Positions 6 through 61,401 of a DNA stretch of 64,000 nucleotides are shown here, piece after piece; position 1 is the stretch's first letter; each line of letters begins with the position of its first letter. The stretch is from Alcanivorax sp. DG881 (GTDB lineage Bacteria > Pseudomonadota > Gammaproteobacteria > Pseudomonadales > Alcanivoracaceae). Under the pieces are notes generated by a model. That model was not told the origin of the DNA. It ran no database searches and was given only the letters and a program-made list of their open reading frames with translations. A program made the translations under genes and the position numbers. The stretch covers positions 1,596,104-1,660,103 of the forward strand of contig NZ_DS989915.1 in NCBI RefSeq assembly GCF_000155615.1, given 5' to 3'.

Positions 6-1169
6 CTACGGCAGGGTTGGCAAGGCAGGCACCAGCGTCAAACGCAGGTCATCGCCGATCTGGCGCACATCCTGCCAACGCAACGCCACTTTTTCGCTCA
101 TGCTGGCCAACTGCGGCAGGCCCAGTAACGGCCGGGCTGACGAGCCCAGCAGGGCCGGTGCCATATAGACGAGAATTTCGTCGAACAGGCCCTCACGGAC
201 AAAAGCACCGGCCAGCGTGGCGCCACATTCTACCAGTACTTCATTACATTCGCGCCGGTTCAATTCGATTAGCAACTGCTGCAGGTCGATCCCGGAGCCA
301 GAGGCCGGCAAATGCATGACCTCAGCCCCGGCGGATTCCAGCGCATTCTGGCGCCCCGGATGCTGTTCTCCGGCCACCAGCAGGCAATGCCCCGGTGCAC
401 TGACCACCGGCACATCCGGGGGCGTGCGCAGGGTTCTGTCCAGAATTACCCGCAACGGCTGGCGCACCCAGTCGCGGCCCGCCTGATTGTGCTCTCCCGG
501 GCTACCGTGATAGTCCGCCAGGGTCCACTGCGCCGGCCGCACCGTATAGGAAGGCCGGTCCGCCAGCACCGTCCCCACGCCGGTGACCACCGCCGAACTG
601 CGTGCCCGCAGGCGCTGCACATCTTCCCGCGCCGCCGGGCCGGTGATCCACTGGGACTCGCCACTGGCCATGGCCGTGCGGCCATCCACACTGGCAGCAA
701 TCTTGATACGAATATAAGGCCGCTGCCGGGTCATCCGGGCAATAAACCCCGGGTTCAGGTCCCGGGCCTGGGTTTCCAGCAATCCCGACGCCACCGCGAT
801 ACCGGCATCCGCCAGCCGTTGCAGTCCCTGCCCCGCTACCTGCGGATTCGGGTCTTCCATGGCCGCGACAACCCGGGCCACCCCGGCTTCCACCAGCGCA
901 TCGGCGCAAGGACCAGTCCGACCGGTATGGGAGCAAGGCTCCAGGGTGACATAGGCCGTGGCTCCCTGAGCCCGATCGCCAGCCGCCGCCAGCGCATGGC
1001 GCTCGGCATGGAGCTCACCGGCCCGGGCATGGAAGCCCTCGCCCACCACCGCGCCACCACGCACCAGCACACAGCCCACCCGTGGATTCGGGTCCGTGGT
1101 GTACAGGCCATGGCGCGCCAGTTGCAGCGCCCGGCTCATAAACTGATGGTCGGCGGCAGAAAAGCTCAT
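6..1169 (-). CDS. ribD: Bifunctional riboflavin biosynthesis deaminase/reductase RibD
   Basis: RibD carries out two successive cytosolic steps of riboflavin synthesis: deamination of the diaminopyrimidine product of GTP cyclohydrolase II, then NADPH-dependent reduction of its ribosyl chain. The 387-residue protein has the usual two-domain length. The N-terminal deaminase shows the zinc signature HAE at residues 54-56 and the PCxxxxxxxxPC pair with Cys79 and Cys88. The reductase domain covers about residues 150-375, with a [12 protein letters not shown] segment near its start. Its ATG overlaps the nrdR stop by 4 nt (ATGA), so the two genes are translationally coupled, as is common in gammaproteobacteria. 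The gene is complete, with its stop at the very edge of the window. Confidence 0.97.
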
Positions 1170-1660
1170 GATTCCTTCGGGTCTTCTAGTTTGTCGCCGG
1201 GTTTGCCGCCGGCTTTTTTCAGGCGATCCACTTCAGCAGAAAACTCGGAAATATCCTGGAAACTGCGGTACACCGACGCAAAGCGCACATAGGCCACATC
1301 GTCCAGCTGTTGCAGCTCTTCCATCACAAATTCACCCAGCTCCCGGGCCGGCAACTCCCGTTCGCCGGTGGCACGCAGACGGTGGCAAATCCGGCTGATC
1401 GCGGCTTCCAGGTCTTCCATGCTCACCGGCCGCTTCTCCAGCGCTCGCAGCATGCCCGCGCGCAGCTTGGCCTCATCAAACGGCTGACGGGTGCCATCGG
1501 TTTTCACCAGGCGTGGCATCACCAATTCCGCCGTTTCAAAGGTGGTAAAGCGCTCGGTACAGCTCAAGCACTCACGGCGACGACGGATCTGCACCCCATC
1601 CGCAACCAGACGAGAGTCGATCACCTTGGTGTCCTGGGCGGAGCAAAACGGGCAGTACAT
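1166..1660 (-). CDS. nrdR: Transcriptional repressor NrdR
   Basis: NrdR is a nucleotide-sensing repressor of ribonucleotide reductase genes. The 164-residue protein has the family layout: an N-terminal zinc ribbon with Cys3, Cys6, Cys31 and Cys34 (CPFC and CLSC), a basic RRRR stretch, then an ATP-cone domain over about residues 46-136. It lies upstream of ribD with a 4-nt overlap. The short leader upstream carries one arm of a heptamer repeat element that ends about 11 nt before the start codon. In related genomes nrdR follows glyA directly, so the small gene between them here is an interruption. Confidence 0.97.
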
Positions 1661-1671
1661 GGAAACCCCAA

Positions 1672-2107
1672 TTAATAGTTAATAATTAATAGTTAATAGC
1701 TAAAAACCATTAACTGCGTGTTTTGGTGGTTTTGATGATGGCAGCCAAAAGCCTGATCAACTCTTCCGCATCAGCCTGCAATGAAGCCCCTGCTTCAGGG
1801 TTGAAGTAACCTGAGTCACACAGCAAATTTATCCAGTAGTCTGTCTCACTGGCTTCTTTCAACGCAATATGCAGCTTATGGACAAAGTCTGCTCTGCTTT
1901 CAGCATATTCCGCCTCCCTGATCAGGGCACCAATGGCCGTTCCACTGCGTAATAGCTGTTTGCTAAGTACATATCCCTTTCTTTCACTTTGCAGAAAACG
2001 GGAACTTTTCACCACCCGCAAAGCAAAAGCGCGGGATTTCTCCCGCGCTGCACTACCTTCCGCCATCCTTGGCCTCCAGTTATTAATTATTCATTATTAA
2101 CTGTTAA
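1672..2107. mobile_element. Candidate element: 28-bp inverted heptamer arrays flanking a four-helix-bundle gene
   Basis: Left arm 1672-1699 is four exact 7-bp units of consensus TTAATAR, followed by a degenerate unit CTAAAAA. Right arm 2080-2107 is four 7-bp units (TTATTAA, TTATTCA, TTATTAA, CTGTTAA). The reverse complement of the right arm matches the left arm at 24 of 28 positions, so the arms are facing inverted repeats. The arms sit 3 to 13 nt from the enclosed gene, and the whole unit fills almost all of the space between the glyA stop (2110-2112) and the nrdR start (1660). No target-site duplication was identified. Calling it a mobile element is inference; the repeat structure is seen directly. 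Confidence 0.6.
1710..2066 (-). CDS. Four-helix-bundle protein (S23/IVS, Avd-like family)
   Basis: A 118-residue, all-helical, charged protein of the family first known from intervening sequences in 23S rRNA genes and related to the Avd accessory protein of diversity-generating retroelements. Recognisable family features are the FALRVVKSS start of helix 1, the SKQLLRSGTAIGALIREAE helix, and the motif DFVHKLHIALKEASETDYW near the centre. The biochemical role of chromosomal copies is unknown; family members are thought to bind nucleic acid. The ATG at 2066 is preceded by a good ribosome site (GGAGG, about 9 nt upstream). The gene is bounded on both sides by inverted heptamer arrays and separates glyA from nrdR. 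No reverse transcriptase or rRNA sequence is nearby. Confidence 0.85.
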   Translation of the reverse strand: MAEGSAAREKSRAFALRVVKSSRFLQSERKGYVLSKQLLRSGTAIGALIREAEYAESRADFVHKLHIALKEASETDYWINLLCDSGYFNPEAGASLQADAEELIRLLAAIIKTTKTRS

Positions 2108-2109
2108 TT

Positions 2110-3366
2110 TTATCTCTCGTACACCGGCAACCGCGCACAAATTTCCTTCACCTTGCCTTTAACGCTTTCGATCACAGACTCGTCGCCCATGTTGTCGAGG
2201 ATGTCGCAAATCCAGCCAGCCAATGCCTTGGCGTCTGCTTCGTCAAAGCCACGGCGGGTGATGGATGGGGAACCGATGCGCAGGCCGGAGGTTACGAACG
2301 GGGAACGCGGGTCGTTGGGCACGGCGTTCTTGTTCACGGTGATGTTAGCCCGGCCCAGGGCGGCGTCGGCATCTTTACCGGTGATGTCCTGCTTGATCAG
2401 GCTGAGCAGGAACAGGTGGTTTTCGGTGCCGTTGGATACCACGTCGAAACCACGCTCGATGAATACGCCGGCCATGGCCTGGGCGTTCTTCACTACCTGC
2501 TGCTGGTAGCCCTTGAAATCCCCTTGCATGGCTTCCTTGAAGCAGATTGCCTTGGCGGCAATCACGTGCTCCAGCGGGCCACCCTGGCCACCGGGGAACA
2601 CGGCAGAGTTGATCTTCTTCTGAATCTCTTCGTTGGCCTTGCCCATGATCAAGCCGCCACGGGGACCACCCAGAGTTTTGTGGGTCGTAGTGGTGGTGAT
2701 GTCGGCAATACCCACCGGGCTGGGGTAGACGCCTGCGGCAACCAGACCGGCCACGTGGGCCATGTCTACCAGCAGGATCGCGCCCACTTCGTCGGCGATG
2801 TCACGGAAACGCTGCCAGTCCACTACCTGGGAGTAGGCAGAGAAGCCCGCCACGATCATTTTCGGCTTGTGCTCACGGGCCAGGGAGGCCACCTGCTCGT
2901 AATCAATCAGGCCGGTCTCGTTGTCCAGGCCGTACTGGATAGCATTGTAGGTCTTGCCGGAGAAGTTCGGCTTGGCACCGTGGGTCAGGTGACCACCCGC
3001 GTCCAGGCTCATGCCCAGCACGGTGTCGCCCGCTTTCAGCATGGCCATGTAAACCGCGCCATTGGCCTGGGAACCGGAATGCGGCTGCACGTTGGCCCAG
3101 TCTGCGCCAAACAGTTCACAGGCGCGATCAATGGCCAGCTGCTCGACCACATCCACATTCTCGCAACCGCCATAGTAACGCTTGCCCGGGTAGCCTTCGG
3201 CGTACTTGTTGGTCAGTACGGAGCCCTGGGCTTCCATGACCCTTGGCGAGGCATAGTTTTCAGAGGCAATCAGCTCGATGTGCTCTTCCTGGCGGACTTC
3301 CTCAGCCTTGATAGCGGCCTGGATTTCAGGATCAAACTCGGCGATGGACATGGATTTCGGGAACAT
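2110..3366 (-). CDS. glyA: Serine hydroxymethyltransferase
   Basis: GlyA is a PLP enzyme interconverting serine plus tetrahydrofolate with glycine plus methylene-tetrahydrofolate in the cytosol, the main source of one-carbon units. The 418-residue length is standard. Visible motifs are [11 protein letters not shown] near the N terminus, [22 protein letters not shown], and the PLP-lysine motif [14 protein letters not shown] at about residues 225-238. It is the first gene of the minus-strand group glyA, four-helix-bundle gene, nrdR, ribD. A later start at Met6 is possible. The 287-bp divergent region to ettA probably holds promoters for both genes, but no clear promoter or riboswitch could be assigned. 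Confidence 0.98.
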
Positions 3367-11629: not shown

Positions 11630-11661
11630 AGCCGCAGTCGTTTTCTTGCAAACCAAGAAGA

Positions 11662-11746
11662 AAGTCGCGAGAAGCGAGTAACGAAGATCAAAAGCGTGAT
11701 CACCCTTCCGGGTTTTGCCTTTCGCAACTCGTTACTCGCAATTCAA
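11662..11746. repeat. Inverted heptamer arrays between arsM and the TVP38 fusion
   Basis: Left arm 11662-11696 runs in 7-bp steps (AAGTCGC, GAGAAGC, GAGTAAC and two degenerate units). Right arm 11719-11746 runs in 7-bp steps with CTCGTTA and CTCGCAA words. The core GCGAGTAACGA at 11674-11684 is perfectly complementary to TCGTTACTCGC at 11729-11739, so the pair can form an 11-bp stem. The word family matches the radA-alr locus. Confidence 0.75.
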
Positions 11747-18222: not shown

Positions 18223-18669
18223 ATGGACGCCTACCACGCAATCACCACACACCGCCTGCACAGCATCTGGCTGTCGTTTCGCAACCTGCCACGCTGGCTG
18301 CAGGGCTGGGTCGCCCTGATTCTGATGCCCCTCAACGGGGCCAGTCTGCTGTTGCTGGATACGTTCTCTGGCCAGGCCATCGCGCTGGCCCTGCTGCTGG
18401 TTCTCGCCGTGAACCTGCCCCTGATGTGGCACCACCGTGGCATGAACAAGGACATGTCACTGGTGCATCTGCTGGCCTGGATTCCACTGGAAATCGCTTT
18501 GCTGGGGCAACTGGCGGGGCGCTGGGGCGACGATCATCTGACACCGGCACTGTGGGGTTTTACCCTTGCGGTATTCATGGTCAACGCCATCAGCCTGTTC
18601 TTCGACGTGGTCGATGCCTGGTGCTGGGCCCAGGGCGATCGCCTGACCCTCCACCCGGATCACAGTTGA
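18223..18669 (+). CDS. Small integral membrane protein, unknown function
   Basis: A 148-residue protein with four hydrophobic segments near residues 25-45, 48-66, 82-98 and 110-128, no signal peptide, and polar ends. It is not recognised as a named family. AGGAGG precedes the ATG at 18223, and the 27-nt gap suggests co-transcription with the DUF547 gene. Its TGA stop (18667-18669) lies inside CAGTTGACAG, the short left arm of a heptamer repeat element, so the present C terminus may have been set by that element. Confidence 0.75.
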   Translation: MDAYHAITTHRLHSIWLSFRNLPRWLQGWVALILMPLNGASLLLLDTFSGQAIALALLLVLAVNLPLMWHHRGMNKDMSLVHLLAWIPLEIALLGQLAGRWGDDHLTPALWGFTLAVFMVNAISLFFDVVDAWCWAQGDRLTLHPDHS

Positions 18670-18808
18670 CAGCGGCGCGGGTGTAGCGCCGTCATTTCAT
18701 CAGGTGTTTAATCCCGCGCCGAGACTCTGGACGCGGCCTCAACCATCTAAAACAACGACAACGCTCAGTTCGCGAGCTACCAACTGTCCACTATCAACTG
18801 TCAACTGA
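18663..18808. repeat. Heptamer repeat element between the small membrane gene and radA
   Basis: The right arm 18781-18808 is four exact 7-bp units (CAACTGT, CCACTAT, CAACTGT, CAACTGA), ending directly at the radA stop codon. CTGTCAACTG at 18798-18807 is the exact reverse complement of CAGTTGACAG at 18663-18672, a short left arm. Inside is a second perfect inverted repeat, GGCGCGGG (18674-18681) with CCCGCGCC (18713-18720). The word family resembles that around the four-helix-bundle gene. Confidence 0.7.
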
Positions 18809-20210: not shown

Positions 20211-20438
20211 GCCGCTGTAGGAACGTAGCGCAGCGGAGTAACGCACGGAGTGCGGCCCCAAAGGGGTGAGCGCAGCGAATAACACCTCTTGAGGTGCGAA
20301 TACGAGCGTTAACGAGTTTCGAGTTTCGAAAAGCACAACCGGAACCTGCCGGGCCTGATAGGTTTGGTTTTCGAAACTCGCTTCTCGCAACTCGTAACTG
20401 TTTTGTTCGCGCCTCAAGTGGCGCTCCTACAGCGACGT
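20211..20438. repeat. Composite of REP-like units and inverted heptamer arrays between radA and alr
   Basis: Outer layer: GCTGTAGGA at about 20217 with CACCTCTTGAGGTGCGAA at about 20282-20299 on the plus strand, and a compact REP-like unit on the minus strand (20406-20436, GCTGTAGGAGCGCC then CTTGAGGCGCGAA), in opposite orientation. Inner layer: left heptamer arm 20304-20331 (units such as AACGAGT and TTCGAGT) and right arm 20370-20404 (CTCGCTT, CTCGCAA, CTCGTAA). The arms are inverted copies, 16 of 21 matching, with the perfect core TTTCGAA. This fills almost the whole 266-bp gap. Confidence 0.75.
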
Positions 20439-21504: not shown

Positions 21505-21520
21505 AAAAAATATCGCCAAA

Positions 21521-21595
21521 CGCCTGACGCCTGACGCCTGACGTTTAAAGAACAGGACTTCGCATCCGGCATCCGGCGTCTAGCGTCTAGCGTTT
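21521..21595. repeat. Inverted heptamer arrays between dnaB and alr
   Basis: Left arm 21521-21548 is three perfect CGCCTGA units plus CGTTTAA. Right arm 21561-21595 is five units in exact 7-bp register (CGCATCC, GGCATCC, GGCGTCT, AGCGTCT, AGCGTTT), and it runs into the dnaB stop codon. GACGCC and GGCGTC cores make the arms partly complementary across a 12-bp spacer. The word family (GCGTCY with A or G) is the same as at the mutL-miaA junction. Confidence 0.8.
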
Positions 21596-22989
21596 TATTC
21601 ATCCCCTGCCGCCAGCTGGGCATAGTATTCCGGCGCCAGATCGTCGAAGCGGGTGAACTCGCCGCGGAAGGCCAGTCGCACGGTGCCGATAGGACCATTA
21701 CGCTGCTTGCCGATAATGATTTCGGCCACACCGCGCTCGTTACTGTCCTTGTTGTACACCTCATCCCGGTACAGGAAGACGATCAAATCCGCATCCTGCT
21801 CAATCGCCCCGGATTCACGCAGATCCGACATCACCGGGCGCTTGTTGGGCCGTTGCTCCAGGGAACGGTTCAACTGCGACAGGGCCAGCACCGGGCAATT
21901 CAGCTCCTTGGCGATCCCTTTCAGGGAGCGGGAAATTTCCGAGATTTCGTTCACCCGGTTTTCCACACCCGGCACCTGCATCAGCTGTAGGTAATCGACC
22001 ATGATCAGCCCCAGTTCGCCGCCACATTCGCGGGCCACCCGGCGGGCACGGGCGCGCATTTCCAGCGGGCTTAATGCCGGCGTGTCGTCGATAAAGAAGC
22101 GCTGCTCACTGAGCATGTGAATGGCCGAGGTGATACGCGGCCAGTCATCCTTTTCCAGGTTACCGGAACGGATCGCGCCCTGATTGATGCGCCCCAGTGA
22201 GGAGAGCATCCGCATGACGATGGATTCCGCCGGCATCTCCATGGAGAACACCAGCACTGGCTTGTTGCTCTTGATCGCCACGTTTTCGCACAGGTTCATG
22301 GCGAAGGTGGTCTTACCCATGGAGGGACGGCCGGCGACCACGATCATGTCGGCGGGCTGCAAGCCACCGGTCATTTTATCCAGCTCTTCAAAACCGGAGG
22401 TCAGGCCGGTGAGTGAGCTCTTGGTTTTGTACAGCTCATCAATGCGGTCCACCGCCTTTTTCAGCACCGACTTGATGTTCTGGGGGCCATCGCCTTTCTT
22501 CTGTTGCTCGGCAATCTCGAAGATGGAGGACTCGGCCTCATCGAGAATTTCCAGGGATTTACGCCCTTCGGTATTAAAAGCGCTATCCGCCACCTTGTGC
22601 GACACATTGATCAACTGCCGCAGGATGCTGCGCTCACGGACGATATCCGAATAGGCGGTAATGTTGGCCGCACTGGGGGTATTTCGGGCCAGCTCCGACA
22701 GATAGGTCATACCGCCGATGGATTCGAGCTGCCCCAGGTTATTGAGCGCCTGGGAGACGGTGACCAGGTCACTGGGGTTTTCCTCTTCCACCAGCTGGGC
22801 AATCACGTCGAAAATCAGGCGGTGCTCCTTGCGGTAGAAATCCCGCGCGCCCACTCGCTCGGCCACATCATCCCAGGCGCTGTTATTGAGTAGCAAACCG
22901 CCCAGTACCGCCTGCTCCGCCTCCACCGAATTGGGAGGAATACGCAGGTTCTCAGGCAGGTGTTTGTCCAGCGACATGGGTTCATTCAT
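21595..22989 (-). CDS. dnaB: Replicative DNA helicase DnaB
   Basis: Hexameric helicase that unwinds DNA at the replication fork. The 464-residue protein has the N-terminal domain beginning PPNSVEAEQAVLGGLLL, Walker A GRPSMGKTTF, and the RecA-like motifs LIMVDYLQLM and ALSQLNRSLEQRPNKRP. No intein is present. ATG 22989 (MNEPMSLDKHL) was chosen; the frame stays open upstream only because it crosses the heptamer element. The gene lies in the usual rpsF-priB-rpsR-rplI-dnaB order. Confidence 0.96.
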   Translation of the reverse strand: MNEPMSLDKHLPENLRIPPNSVEAEQAVLGGLLLNNSAWDDVAERVGARDFYRKEHRLIFDVIAQLVEEENPSDLVTVSQALNNLGQLESIGGMTYLSELARNTPSAANITAYSDIVRERSILRQLINVSHKVADSAFNTEGRKSLEILDEAESSIFEIAEQQKKGDGPQNIKSVLKKAVDRIDELYKTKSSLTGLTSGFEELDKMTGGLQPADMIVVAGRPSMGKTTFAMNLCENVAIKSNKPVLVFSMEMPAESIVMRMLSSLGRINQGAIRSGNLEKDDWPRITSAIHMLSEQRFFIDDTPALSPLEMRARARRVARECGGELGLIMVDYLQLMQVPGVENRVNEISEISRSLKGIAKELNCPVLALSQLNRSLEQRPNKRPVMSDLRESGAIEQDADLIVFLYRDEVYNKDSNERGVAEIIIGKQRNGPIGTVRLAFRGEFTRFDDLAPEYYAQLAAGDE

Positions 22990-23014: not shown

Positions 23015-23166
23015 AGAGTTGAAAGACCAAAGTTTAACGTTGAAACGCGATCCAGGCATGTACCCATCGCTAGATTCTATAAGCCGCGACAACGCTGTAG
23101 TCGCGGCCTTGTACCGCCAAGAACACACCGGCTCCACTCGCGTTTCAACTTTAAACTTTCAACGTT
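23015..23166. repeat. Inverted heptamer arrays with central REP-like hairpin between rplI and dnaB
   Basis: Left arm 23015-23049 and right arm 23139-23166 run in strict 7-bp steps of words such as AAAGTTT, AACGTTG and CAACTTT. The right arm's reverse complement matches 23022-23049 at 23 of 28 positions, with GTTGAAACGCG (23039-23049) perfectly paired to CGCGTTTCAAC (23139-23149). The spacer holds a separate hairpin, GCCGCGAC (23083-23090) with GTCGCGGC (23100-23107). Confidence 0.8.
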
Positions 23167-23181
23167 GCACTGCCCTTCAAC

Positions 23182-25657: not shown

Positions 25658-26254
25658 ATGACCGGGCGCGTGCTGCATACCCCCATTATGCTGATCAGTG
25701 TCATGATGTTGGCCCTGAACGGGCAAGCACTGGGCGCCCAGGAGGTGGAGTCGCCGCAGGAGGCGCTGGCCCGCGCGCTGGGGGCGAGGCCGGAAATTCG
25801 CGACTACACGCGCCAGGACCGATTCGTGACCGACCTGCTCGCCTGGCAACGCCACAAAAGCGAACTGGAGGCCAAACTGGCCCGGGGGGAGTCCATTGCG
25901 CCTCCTGCACCAGCGCCACAACCAAACTGGCACCATGTTACCGGCCCGGAAGACCTGGATACCGCCCTGCACAATGCGCAGGGCTACAAACAACCGAACT
26001 ACCAGGAACCCATTCGCTACGACCGCACCACCCACCTGAGTTTTCCGCTGCCGCCATTGCCGCAACAACAGCTGTCAGAAAAGGTATTGACCGGCGAACG
26101 CCCCGTGCCGGCAGACCCGGCCAAAGAAGAGATTCATGAGGAACTACTGGAGGAGAATACCCGGCTACAACGGGAAATGGCCGCCAGCCGGGCAAACCTG
26201 CCGCCCCCGGAACTCAACCGGCAGCATTTCGTCAGCCATTCTCAGCTACGCTGA
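25658..26254 (+). CDS. Exported coiled-coil protein of unknown function
   Basis: A 198-residue protein with a signal peptide ending near ALGAQE. It shares with its upstream neighbour the pattern DYTRQDRFVTDLLAWQRHKSE (compare DYPDYSNFLLQIMKYKQ) and YDRTTHLSFPLPPLP (compare YNRSTSKSFVLPPLG), which suggests a common ancestral module. The C-terminal part has a charged helix, EEIHEELLEENTRLQREMAA, likely a short coiled coil. Its end overlaps the end of convergent rlmB by 13 nt. Function unknown. Confidence 0.72.
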   Translation: MTGRVLHTPIMLISVMMLALNGQALGAQEVESPQEALARALGARPEIRDYTRQDRFVTDLLAWQRHKSELEAKLARGESIAPPAPAPQPNWHHVTGPEDLDTALHNAQGYKQPNYQEPIRYDRTTHLSFPLPPLPQQQLSEKVLTGERPVPADPAKEEIHEELLEENTRLQREMAASRANLPPPELNRQHFVSHSQLR

Positions 26255-60354: not shown

Positions 60355-61401
60355 CTAACTAAACACAGATTTACAGTTCTTCGCAAGCAGCTCAAACAGC
60401 GCCTTTCGCTGTGACAGATCATTACTGTCGAACCACTGCAGATCCGGCCATTTTCGCAACCAGGTGAACTGGCGTTTGGCCAGCTGGCGGGTGGCGATAA
60501 TGCCCCGCTCCACCATGGTGTCGTAGTCATACTGGCCGTCCAGATATTCCCACACCTGGCGGTAGCCCACCGCCCTGATGCCCGGTAACGCCGGATGCAG
60601 CTGTGTTTGCTGCCGCAGCCCTTCCACTTCGGCCAGCAAACCGGCGTCGAGCATGGCCCGAAAACGCAGGGCAATCTGCTCGTGCAGCCAGCCCCGGTCC
60701 CGGGGCGCCAGCGCCAGGCTAAGCACGGGATACGGCAACCCACTGAACTGACTCAAACCATCCCGGTTCTTTATGACAGTTGTATGATGCTCCGCGTGGA
60801 ATGCGGACAACGGCCGACCGGTGAGGCGAAACACTTCCAGCGCTCGCTGTAACCGCTGCCGGTCCGTGGGCTTGAGCCGCGCCGCTGTCACCGGGTCCAC
60901 CTCGGCCAGCGCCTGATGCACCGCCGGCCAGCCTTGCGCATCGGCCAGGGCCGCAATCTCCGCCCGCACCTGCGGGTCCGCTTCCGGCAACGGCGCCAGC
61001 CCCTCCACCAGGGCCTTGAAATACAGCACCGTGCCGCCCACCAGCAACGGCAACTTGCCGTTGGCGTGGATCTCTTCGATATGACTGAGCGCATCGGCGC
61101 GAAAATCCGCAGCGGAATAGGGCTCGGTCAGATCACGAAAGCCCAGCAACCGGTGTGGCGCCAATGCCAGCTCTTCTTCAGTGGGGCGGGCAGCACCAAT
61201 ATTCAAGCCCTGATAGACCAGCGCCGAGTCCACATTGATGATTTCGATGGGCAGGGACTGCACCGCCTCGATAGCCAGCGCCGTCTTGCCGGAACAGGTA
61301 GGGCCCATAAGAAGAAAAACAGGCTTGATGCCGGATGCCGGACGCCGGACTGAGCCGGTTTCACGTTGGGCGTCCGGCGTCTGGCGTCCGGCGTTCATCA
61401 T
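60355..61401 (-). CDS. miaA: tRNA dimethylallyltransferase MiaA with repeat-encoded N-terminal extension
   Basis: Adds a dimethylallyl group to A37 of tRNAs reading U-starting codons. The P-loop [32 protein letters not shown] and [11 protein letters not shown] motifs identify it. ATG 61401 overlaps the mutL stop (ATGA), the likely start, giving 348 residues. Its first 26 or so residues ([16 protein letters not shown] and onward) come from a heptamer repeat element and have no counterpart in usual MiaA, which begins a few residues before the P-loop. If translation starts later, no good ATG exists before Met34 in the P-loop region. Confidence 0.94.
61327..61395. repeat. Inverted heptamer arrays at the mutL-miaA junction
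   Basis: Left arm 61327-61354 has two GATGCCG, one GACGCCG and one degenerate unit; right arm 61368-61395 has four 7-bp units of consensus NGGCGTY. GACGCCGGAC (61341-61350) is the exact reverse complement of GTCCGGCGTC (61372-61381). The spacer is 13 nt. The array begins 3 nt from the mutL stop and lies inside the likely miaA frame. Confidence 0.8.

Follow-up and report, generated by a model that had tools for sequence, protein, structure and literature searches.

The extra pieces found in some 23S rRNA genes, intervening sequences (IVSs) such as those of Leptospira and Coxiella that carry an S23p open reading frame, are the closest described systems to the unit reported here: they encode a protein of the same family, and their reading frame lies between inverted repeats of similar length that are capable of forming a stem. 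In the sections of PMC4990558 on which we draw, the Coxiella 23S IVS has a 28-bp stem within which RNase III cuts, tandem GACAGAT heptamers lie upstream of its ORF in two or three sets depending on the strain, and XCC0516 of Xanthomonas campestris is a homopentamer that forms a toroid. The same sections cite the old idea that the IVS is a mobile element and call the origin and role of IVSs unclear after more than 25 years. Tandem heptamers that are dispersed and mainly intergenic, as ours are, have been described as GGGAATC in Xanthomonas (Rehm 2015, PMC4692102) and as TAACTGA in Beggiatoaceae (MacGregor 2015, PMC4679880). The passages of Rehm 2015 used here deal with two Xanthomonas genomes, one with 186 and the other with 183 arrays that contain GGGAATC, the majority of four units, with many inverted pairs that are often convergent and generally not with mobile elements; they also state that many bacterial genomes have an excess of heptameric repeats, a subject on which the paper found no detailed literature. 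Unlike the repeats described below, those of each paper are centred on one heptamer type. Neither 'S23' nor 'four helix' occurs in the main text of either, and in the openly licensed PMC literature we found no paper linking heptamer arms to the whole protein family, which is a weak negative.

The window, by which we mean the whole 64,000-nt stretch of Alcanivorax sp. DG881 DNA that was analysed, carries a unit of this kind between glyA and nrdR; these names, like alr, dnaB, rplI, radA, cysC and cysN below, are presumed from the protein sequences. The gene (1710..2066, minus strand) has an open frame for an S23 four-helix-bundle protein of 118 aa. This protein belongs to the 23S_rRNA_IVP family (hereafter IVP), with nearly full-length matches above the curated cut-offs of both PF05635 (E 9.8e-25, 87.3 bits against 33.8, positions 6-105 of 106) and TIGR02436 (E 2e-27, 95.6 bits against 24, positions 3-109 of 109). 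A profile of 21 members matches 2gsc (XCC0516) with an E of 3.8e-42. Nothing in the unit codes for a known catalytic domain. On either side of the gene, 8 and 11 nt away, are two arms of 32 nt each that are 88% complementary and separated by 376 nt. The arm downstream of the gene (1670..1701) consists of TTAATAG/TTAATAA units on the plus strand and adjoins the start of nrdR (1166-1660, minus strand), and the heptamers of the arm upstream (2078..2109) touch the stop of glyA (2110-3366, minus strand) with their outer end. Both arms have a tandem period of 7, with TTAATAG repeated 4.6 times (1672-1703) and TTATTAA 4.3 times (2080-2109). The unit occupies the glyA-nrdR gap and is co-directional with both genes, its arm score is 22, where the best of 60 dinucleotide shuffles reached 11.5, and as a single strand it is predicted to form a long stem around the gene (z -4.7 for DNA, -5.8 for RNA; 0 of 100 shuffles as stable). 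A preliminary description had seen here an intact S23-type gene enclosed within about 13 nt by inverted heptamer arms, the whole filling the glyA-nrdR gap, and was accurate in all of this.

Tandem heptamers in the arms are a feature shared with the Coxiella IVS in the sections cited (PMC4990558), and one family locus joins the two settings: L027, in genome G038, is an IVS inside 23S rRNA by its Rfam LSU match and has AGAGGAC-like heptamer arms (score 25, lag 7). On these two grounds the link to 23S IVSs made in the preliminary description stands. L027 was the only one with that location among 35 other loci scanned with Rfam. Unlike a 23S IVS, the window unit lies between protein genes, outside the 23S rRNA helix, gene-less pairs are dispersed in its genus, and the arm heptamers vary by locus. 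This variation also separates it from a MITE, since there is no fixed terminal inverted repeat common to the copies. The REPIN/RAYT system resembles it in having many non-coding hairpins and few gene copies per genome, whereas our unit is without a known catalytic domain and its arms are without a fixed sequence. RAYT hairpins fade after the gene is lost.

IVP matches occurred in 23 of 57 genomes of the relatives set (own genome included), in 50 of 299 genomes of a phylum draw and in 0 of 14 control genomes; the window's own genome (G000) has four IVP genes. For each locus we measured the local complementarity between the sequences 5' and 3' of the gene and compared it with that of 60 dinucleotide shuffles of these flanks. 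Inverted arms scored above all 60 shuffles at 129 of the 150 IVP loci scored, with a best lag of 7 in 118 of the 129, so that most scored family members have flanking 7-bp arrays; their absence from most members was one of the outcomes that the preliminary description had named as refuting its proposal. A first set contributed 116 of 130 loci (lag 7 in 108) and a second, lower-ranked set 13 of 20 (lag 7 in 10); the remaining 14 and 7 loci, 21 of 150 in all, had arms not above the shuffles. Among relatives, whose loci are mutually non-independent, arms were found at 51 of 51 loci (lag 7 in 50), in the phylum set at 22 of 28 (21), in the class set at 8 of 9 (8) and on cyanobacterial plasmids at 4 of 4 (4; from 4 of 27 plasmid records examined). 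In the genome_contigs set, among the matches listed, the count was 31 of 38 (25), from Verrucomicrobiota, Bacteroidota, Planctomycetota, Acidobacteriota, Chloroflexota, Omnitrophota, Gemmatimonadota and others. A score of at least 14 was reached by 109 of 130 real flanks vs 1 of 248 flanks displaced by 700 nt. Arms had a median length of 31 nt, and the commonest class was that of four units (50 of 116). Chance repeats were considered as a source of the arms and are ruled out by the shuffles, the displaced flanks and the other periods.

The significant loci whose best lag was not 7 number eight in the first set (L002, L079, L097, L099, L100, L105, L111, L118) and three in the second (L325, L332, L335), and for L103 the lag of 7 is nominal only (match 0.38). 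With flanks starting 10 nt ahead of the stop codon, the 99% shuffle line was passed by 49 of the 51 relatives; L001 and L028 pass only with the last 60 nt of the frame included because there the arm overlaps the frame. The relatives scan scored 51 of 55 places, the others being L008, which has a stop inside, and three partial matches. From 78 non-relative places the phylum scan scored 48 plus L308 and L309, with L075, whose frame failed, and L310 dropped and many of the remaining 26 being fragments. Also left out were L306, with stops inside, and the duplicates L009 (same place as L001), L029 (same place as L003) and L310 (a copy of L309). The second set (n=20) includes L328 and L335, with a stop inside, and L342, which is cut by the contig end.

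What the arms keep is their period and not their sequence. Heptamers vary by locus (TTAATAG, TTGACAG, GAGCTAC, CAAGCTA, GTGAGCT, AAGTTGA, CACGCAA, GTAGGCA, GCGAATG and more), and mean arm similarity falls with protein identity, from 0.87 at identities of at least 90% (45 pairs) and 0.55 at 70-90% (151 pairs) to 0.29 at 50-70% (549 pairs) and 0.18 below 35% (4434 pairs). Among 19 glyA-nrdR orthologues the units are mostly TTAATAG-, TTGATAA-, TTGACAG- or TTAACAG-like, with the same kind in both arms. Permuting the units of one arm lowered the re-optimised score from 22.9 to 20.3, and the real order was higher in 83 of 117 cases; the arms correspond unit by unit, and unit order matters. These comparisons show a heptamer that can change freely while its own length and the arm-to-arm match are kept. 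The period itself differs in a few places. One protein clade is made up of six Bacteroidales loci, most of them of rumen or gut origin (L097, L099, L100, L103, L105, L108); in it L097, L099, L100 and L105 have a best lag of 8 or 9, L103 has no clear period and L108 has no arms above the shuffles; elsewhere in the tree L111 has a best lag of 6, and in family f62 L079, L332 and L335 have a best lag of 8. At L077 (1330-1450) the left array runs to about 15 perfect CGAGTAG units with no right-arm counterpart. Over the 116 significant loci, the coding strand of the upstream arm is rich in purines and poor in C, the share of C being 0.14 overall and 0.11 in non-relatives.

The glyA-nrdR site in relatives allows gene and arms to be compared with their neighbours. 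Similarity of the IVP correlates with that of the two arms at r 0.64 and 0.76, vs 0.16 for nrdR DNA and 0.30 for glyA against the left arm. Genomes G007 and G011 have proteins 0.98 and arms 1.00 and 0.98 alike, but nrdR DNA only 0.83 alike; G007 and G000 have nrdR 0.95 alike, but protein 0.67 and arms 0.62 and 0.71. The pattern in G007 looks as it would after a horizontal swap of the unit. Gene plus arms are thereby shown, as far as sequence comparison can tell, to go together as a single unit against the background of glyA and nrdR, and independent variation of the two, the outcome that the preliminary description had named as fatal to its proposal, is not what these values describe. IVP orthologues at this site have a median dN/dS of 0.091, measurable in 49 of 171 pairs at a median dS of 1.52, which is near saturation. 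The gap could be bounded at 24 of 30 nrdR loci and not in the other 6. It is 5, 9, 18 and 24 nt long in four other genera. In G018 a gap of 186 nt holds a gene-less heptamer pair (score 20.5, lag 7; 0 of 200 shuffles as good), while in three genomes of the genus of G018 (G025, G029, G032) the site holds an IVP gene (L026, L045, L053). In G022 the gap is 341 nt long and contains an inverted repeat of 18 bp that is non-heptameric; in G036 the gap is 190 nt long.

Gene-less pairs were collected by a fixed rule of 21-nt arms with a lag-7 match and at least 16 of 21 positions paired. The window has six elements by this rule, the IVP unit included, as against 0 in one shuffle and 0-1 for periods of 5, 6, 8, 9 and 10. 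The five without a gene lie at 11660..11741 (CGAGTAA/GAGAAGC type), 20300..20403 (CGAGTTT type, radA-alr gap), 21514..21596 (ACGCCTG type, alr-dnaB gap), 23015..23170 (AAGTTGA type, dnaB-rplI gap) and 61323..61401 (GATGCCG/GGCGTCC type). Six other loci had been proposed in the preliminary description; the sixth (18660..18808), with CAACTGT units on the right and a worn left arm, is weaker and falls below the rule. In six gene-bearing congeners we counted 53 inverted heptamer pairs in 564 kb, of which 52 are gene-less and the exception is the window's own; the sampled stretches held no other IVP gene place of the relatives scan. Six gene-free genomes gave 3 pairs in 600 kb, although five of the six are of other genera, so genus confounds this comparison. 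The sole congener among these six, G015, accounts for one of the three pairs (1 in 200 kb), and G029, with two IVP genes, has 1 in 100 kb. Shuffles gave 0 pairs, or one at a stricter setting. Period 7 did not exceed the other five periods together in G029 (8 for the others vs 1), G030 (7 vs 2), G019 (5 vs 0) or G015. Outside the family, 100-kb samples held 3 pairs in G243, one of them (L242) not array-like, and 0 gene-less pairs in each of the gene-bearing G105, G125, G271 and G286, which are of other families; the gene-free G338, G101 and G211 likewise had 0 pairs per 100 kb. For the window's genus, these counts show gene-less pairs, as recognised by sequence rule, dispersed in the same genomes as IVP genes.

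Single sites show such pairs changing type and, apparently, decaying. Five genomes carry a pair of the AAGTTGA type between dnaB and rplI; in G012 the type there is CAAGCTG and in G004 it is GAGTTTC, both arms having switched each time. The site at window position 26250 has a pair in G011 and G001, nothing in G000 and G007, a 138-nt stretch without heptamers in G004 and an 89-nt stretch with one array in G008 and G012, with untidy edges. The alr-dnaB sequence of G015 can be aligned with that of G000 (53 matches over its 84 bases), and its arm score is 5 vs 11-20 in six congeners; it is in all likelihood a decayed array. No significant pair was found in G015 at alr-radA (7.0, reached by 54 of 200 shuffles) or at glyA-nrdR (7.5, reached by 22 of 200), where a short heptamer-like 15-mer may be a remnant. 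Array loss in G015 is a single event and is confounded because this genome also lacks Y1 transposases. The proposal that the glyA-nrdR unit is the full form and the others its gene-less derivatives thus fares unevenly: the gene-less pair of G018 and the abundance of pairs in gene-bearing congeners, as against their rarity in G015, speak for it, and the four gene-bearing genomes of other families without gene-less pairs speak against it, as do the GAGTTTC and AAGTTGA pairs of the window, for which no like-armed gene copy exists among the four of G000. One gene-less pair (L295, 2554-2714, in G011 and at the same site in G001) has a GC-rich hairpin in its loop that is terminator-like to the eye.

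We hold with high confidence that the unit is made of an IVP gene flanked by inverted arrays, each of about four to five heptamers. As to what it is, we incline, on a modest balance of probability, to a short selfish element of the 23S-rRNA IVS kind that sits between protein genes and has ends defined by a period of 7 nt and not by a sequence. Slippage within each arm, together with strand switching between the two at the hairpin, would keep the arms matched at the DNA level. The protein may recognise the hairpin, as the preliminary description had proposed: its ring could bind there at about 7 nt per contact, shielding the hairpin or promoting that copying, and would act in trans on gene-less copies. 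With no known catalytic domain of its own, the unit would depend on the host's replication and repair enzymes to move. We know of no transposable element whose ends keep period and partner but not sequence. The same build in many phyla suggests little-noticed selfish DNA akin to the extra pieces in some ribosomal RNA genes, an architecture that ties the unexplained origin of 23S IVSs to the over-represented heptameric repeats. A bolder form, of which we are doubtful and which we offer only tentatively, is that of a widespread class of selfish DNA with ends defined by unit length and mutual complementarity, in which the IVP ring measures and rewrites the heptamers; if true, it would explain both the heptanucleotide-repeat excess in bacterial genomes and the source of 23S rRNA IVSs. 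The interpretation given in the preliminary description is partly borne out, in its link to 23S IVSs and in the joint behaviour of gene and arms, but not in its link to diversity-generating retroelements.

Several observations would also suit an element that works as RNA, its transcript stem being cut by RNase III as in a 23S IVS so that the operon mRNA is processed or freed of the unit. The unit folds as RNA at z -5.8, the window unit is read in the direction of both glyA and nrdR, RNase III cleaves the Coxiella IVS inside its 28-bp stem in the sections of PMC4990558 cited above, and the strands are not equivalent, upstream arms of non-relatives having A 0.32, G 0.34, C 0.11 and T 0.23. If a sense RNA stem were under selection, G-U mismatches should outnumber A-C, but the arm mismatches of 105 loci (103 G-U in the sense RNA, 136 A-C, 315 other) show no such excess; we made no use of the slight lean toward A-C (p 0.04), the loci not being independent. 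These counts led us to reject selection on sense RNA as the keeper of the arms, and they point to complementarity being kept at the DNA level, a view that leaves the purine-rich upstream arms unexplained. An RNA-level element would in addition leave the 7-nt period without a reason, and we consider it unlikely. We attach equally little probability to the idea that slippage and hairpin-templated repair alone make the heptamer pairs, with the gene hitch-hiking between them. Arm-to-arm copying would be expected to give the unit-by-unit match and the lack of a G-U excess, and it has been proposed that heptanucleotide repeats mirror the contact length of the polymerase (Mrazek 2007, cited in the part of PMC4679880 used here). 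A passenger gene fits poorly with the rarity of pairs in this family's sampled gene-free genomes, subject to the genus caveat given above, and with the samples of G125 and G271, which are without gene-less pairs, yet L069 and L335 (G125) and L082 and L309 (G271) have arms, L308 (G271) being without.

A RAYT-type Y1 transposase that moves the gene-less hairpins, the IVP gene being unrelated, is less probable still. Seven gene-bearing genomes were tested and each has 3-6 Y1 matches, G015 having none, and in the four Y1 loci looked at, from 36 places, inverted flanks above 60 shuffles occurred at L315 and L318. L316 and L317 have none, L315 is only weakly heptameric (an inverted pair starting GGGTCAGACC, score 13.5, lag-7 match 0.54), and the flanks of L318 are other palindromic repeats that are non-heptameric (score 26, lag-7 match 0.21); moreover, G030, G017 and G019 carry Y1 genes but have 2, 0 and 0 pairs. 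Next to no credence can be given to the unit as part of a diversity-generating retroelement, its protein serving as Avd for a reverse transcriptase. PF05635 resembles Avd and is of the same fold family in the portion of PMC10053308 cited, but at the sensitivity used G008 was the one genome of seven gene-bearing ones with RVT_1 matches, two in number; G000 is among the six that had none. We rejected this candidate, and with it that link of the preliminary description, on the lack of a reverse transcriptase match in G000.

If the unit is a selfish element of the IVS kind, as we favour, its mobility may be rare, because complete elements are often at the same sites among relatives. In the material compared we saw no transposition event, no target duplication and no clean empty/filled pair among close relatives. 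Recent copying in G271 was considered and rejected, since L309 and L310 are identical over all 3,321 bases fetched, which indicates a larger duplication; phage carriage was considered for the family protein L072, which had no match in the phage collection. Several families have IVP units next to sulfate-assimilation genes, before what we take to be cysC (L003, L021, L031-L035) or cysN (L329, L323, L077), which looks like repeated use of the site. The IVP genes of the cyanobacterial plasmids (L311-L314), which have heptamer arms, lie near integrase, TraM-like, ParB or transposase genes. Elsewhere an IVP gene lies between two tRNA genes (L106, 2269-2858), and another directly before a 6S RNA gene (L114, 2501-3102).
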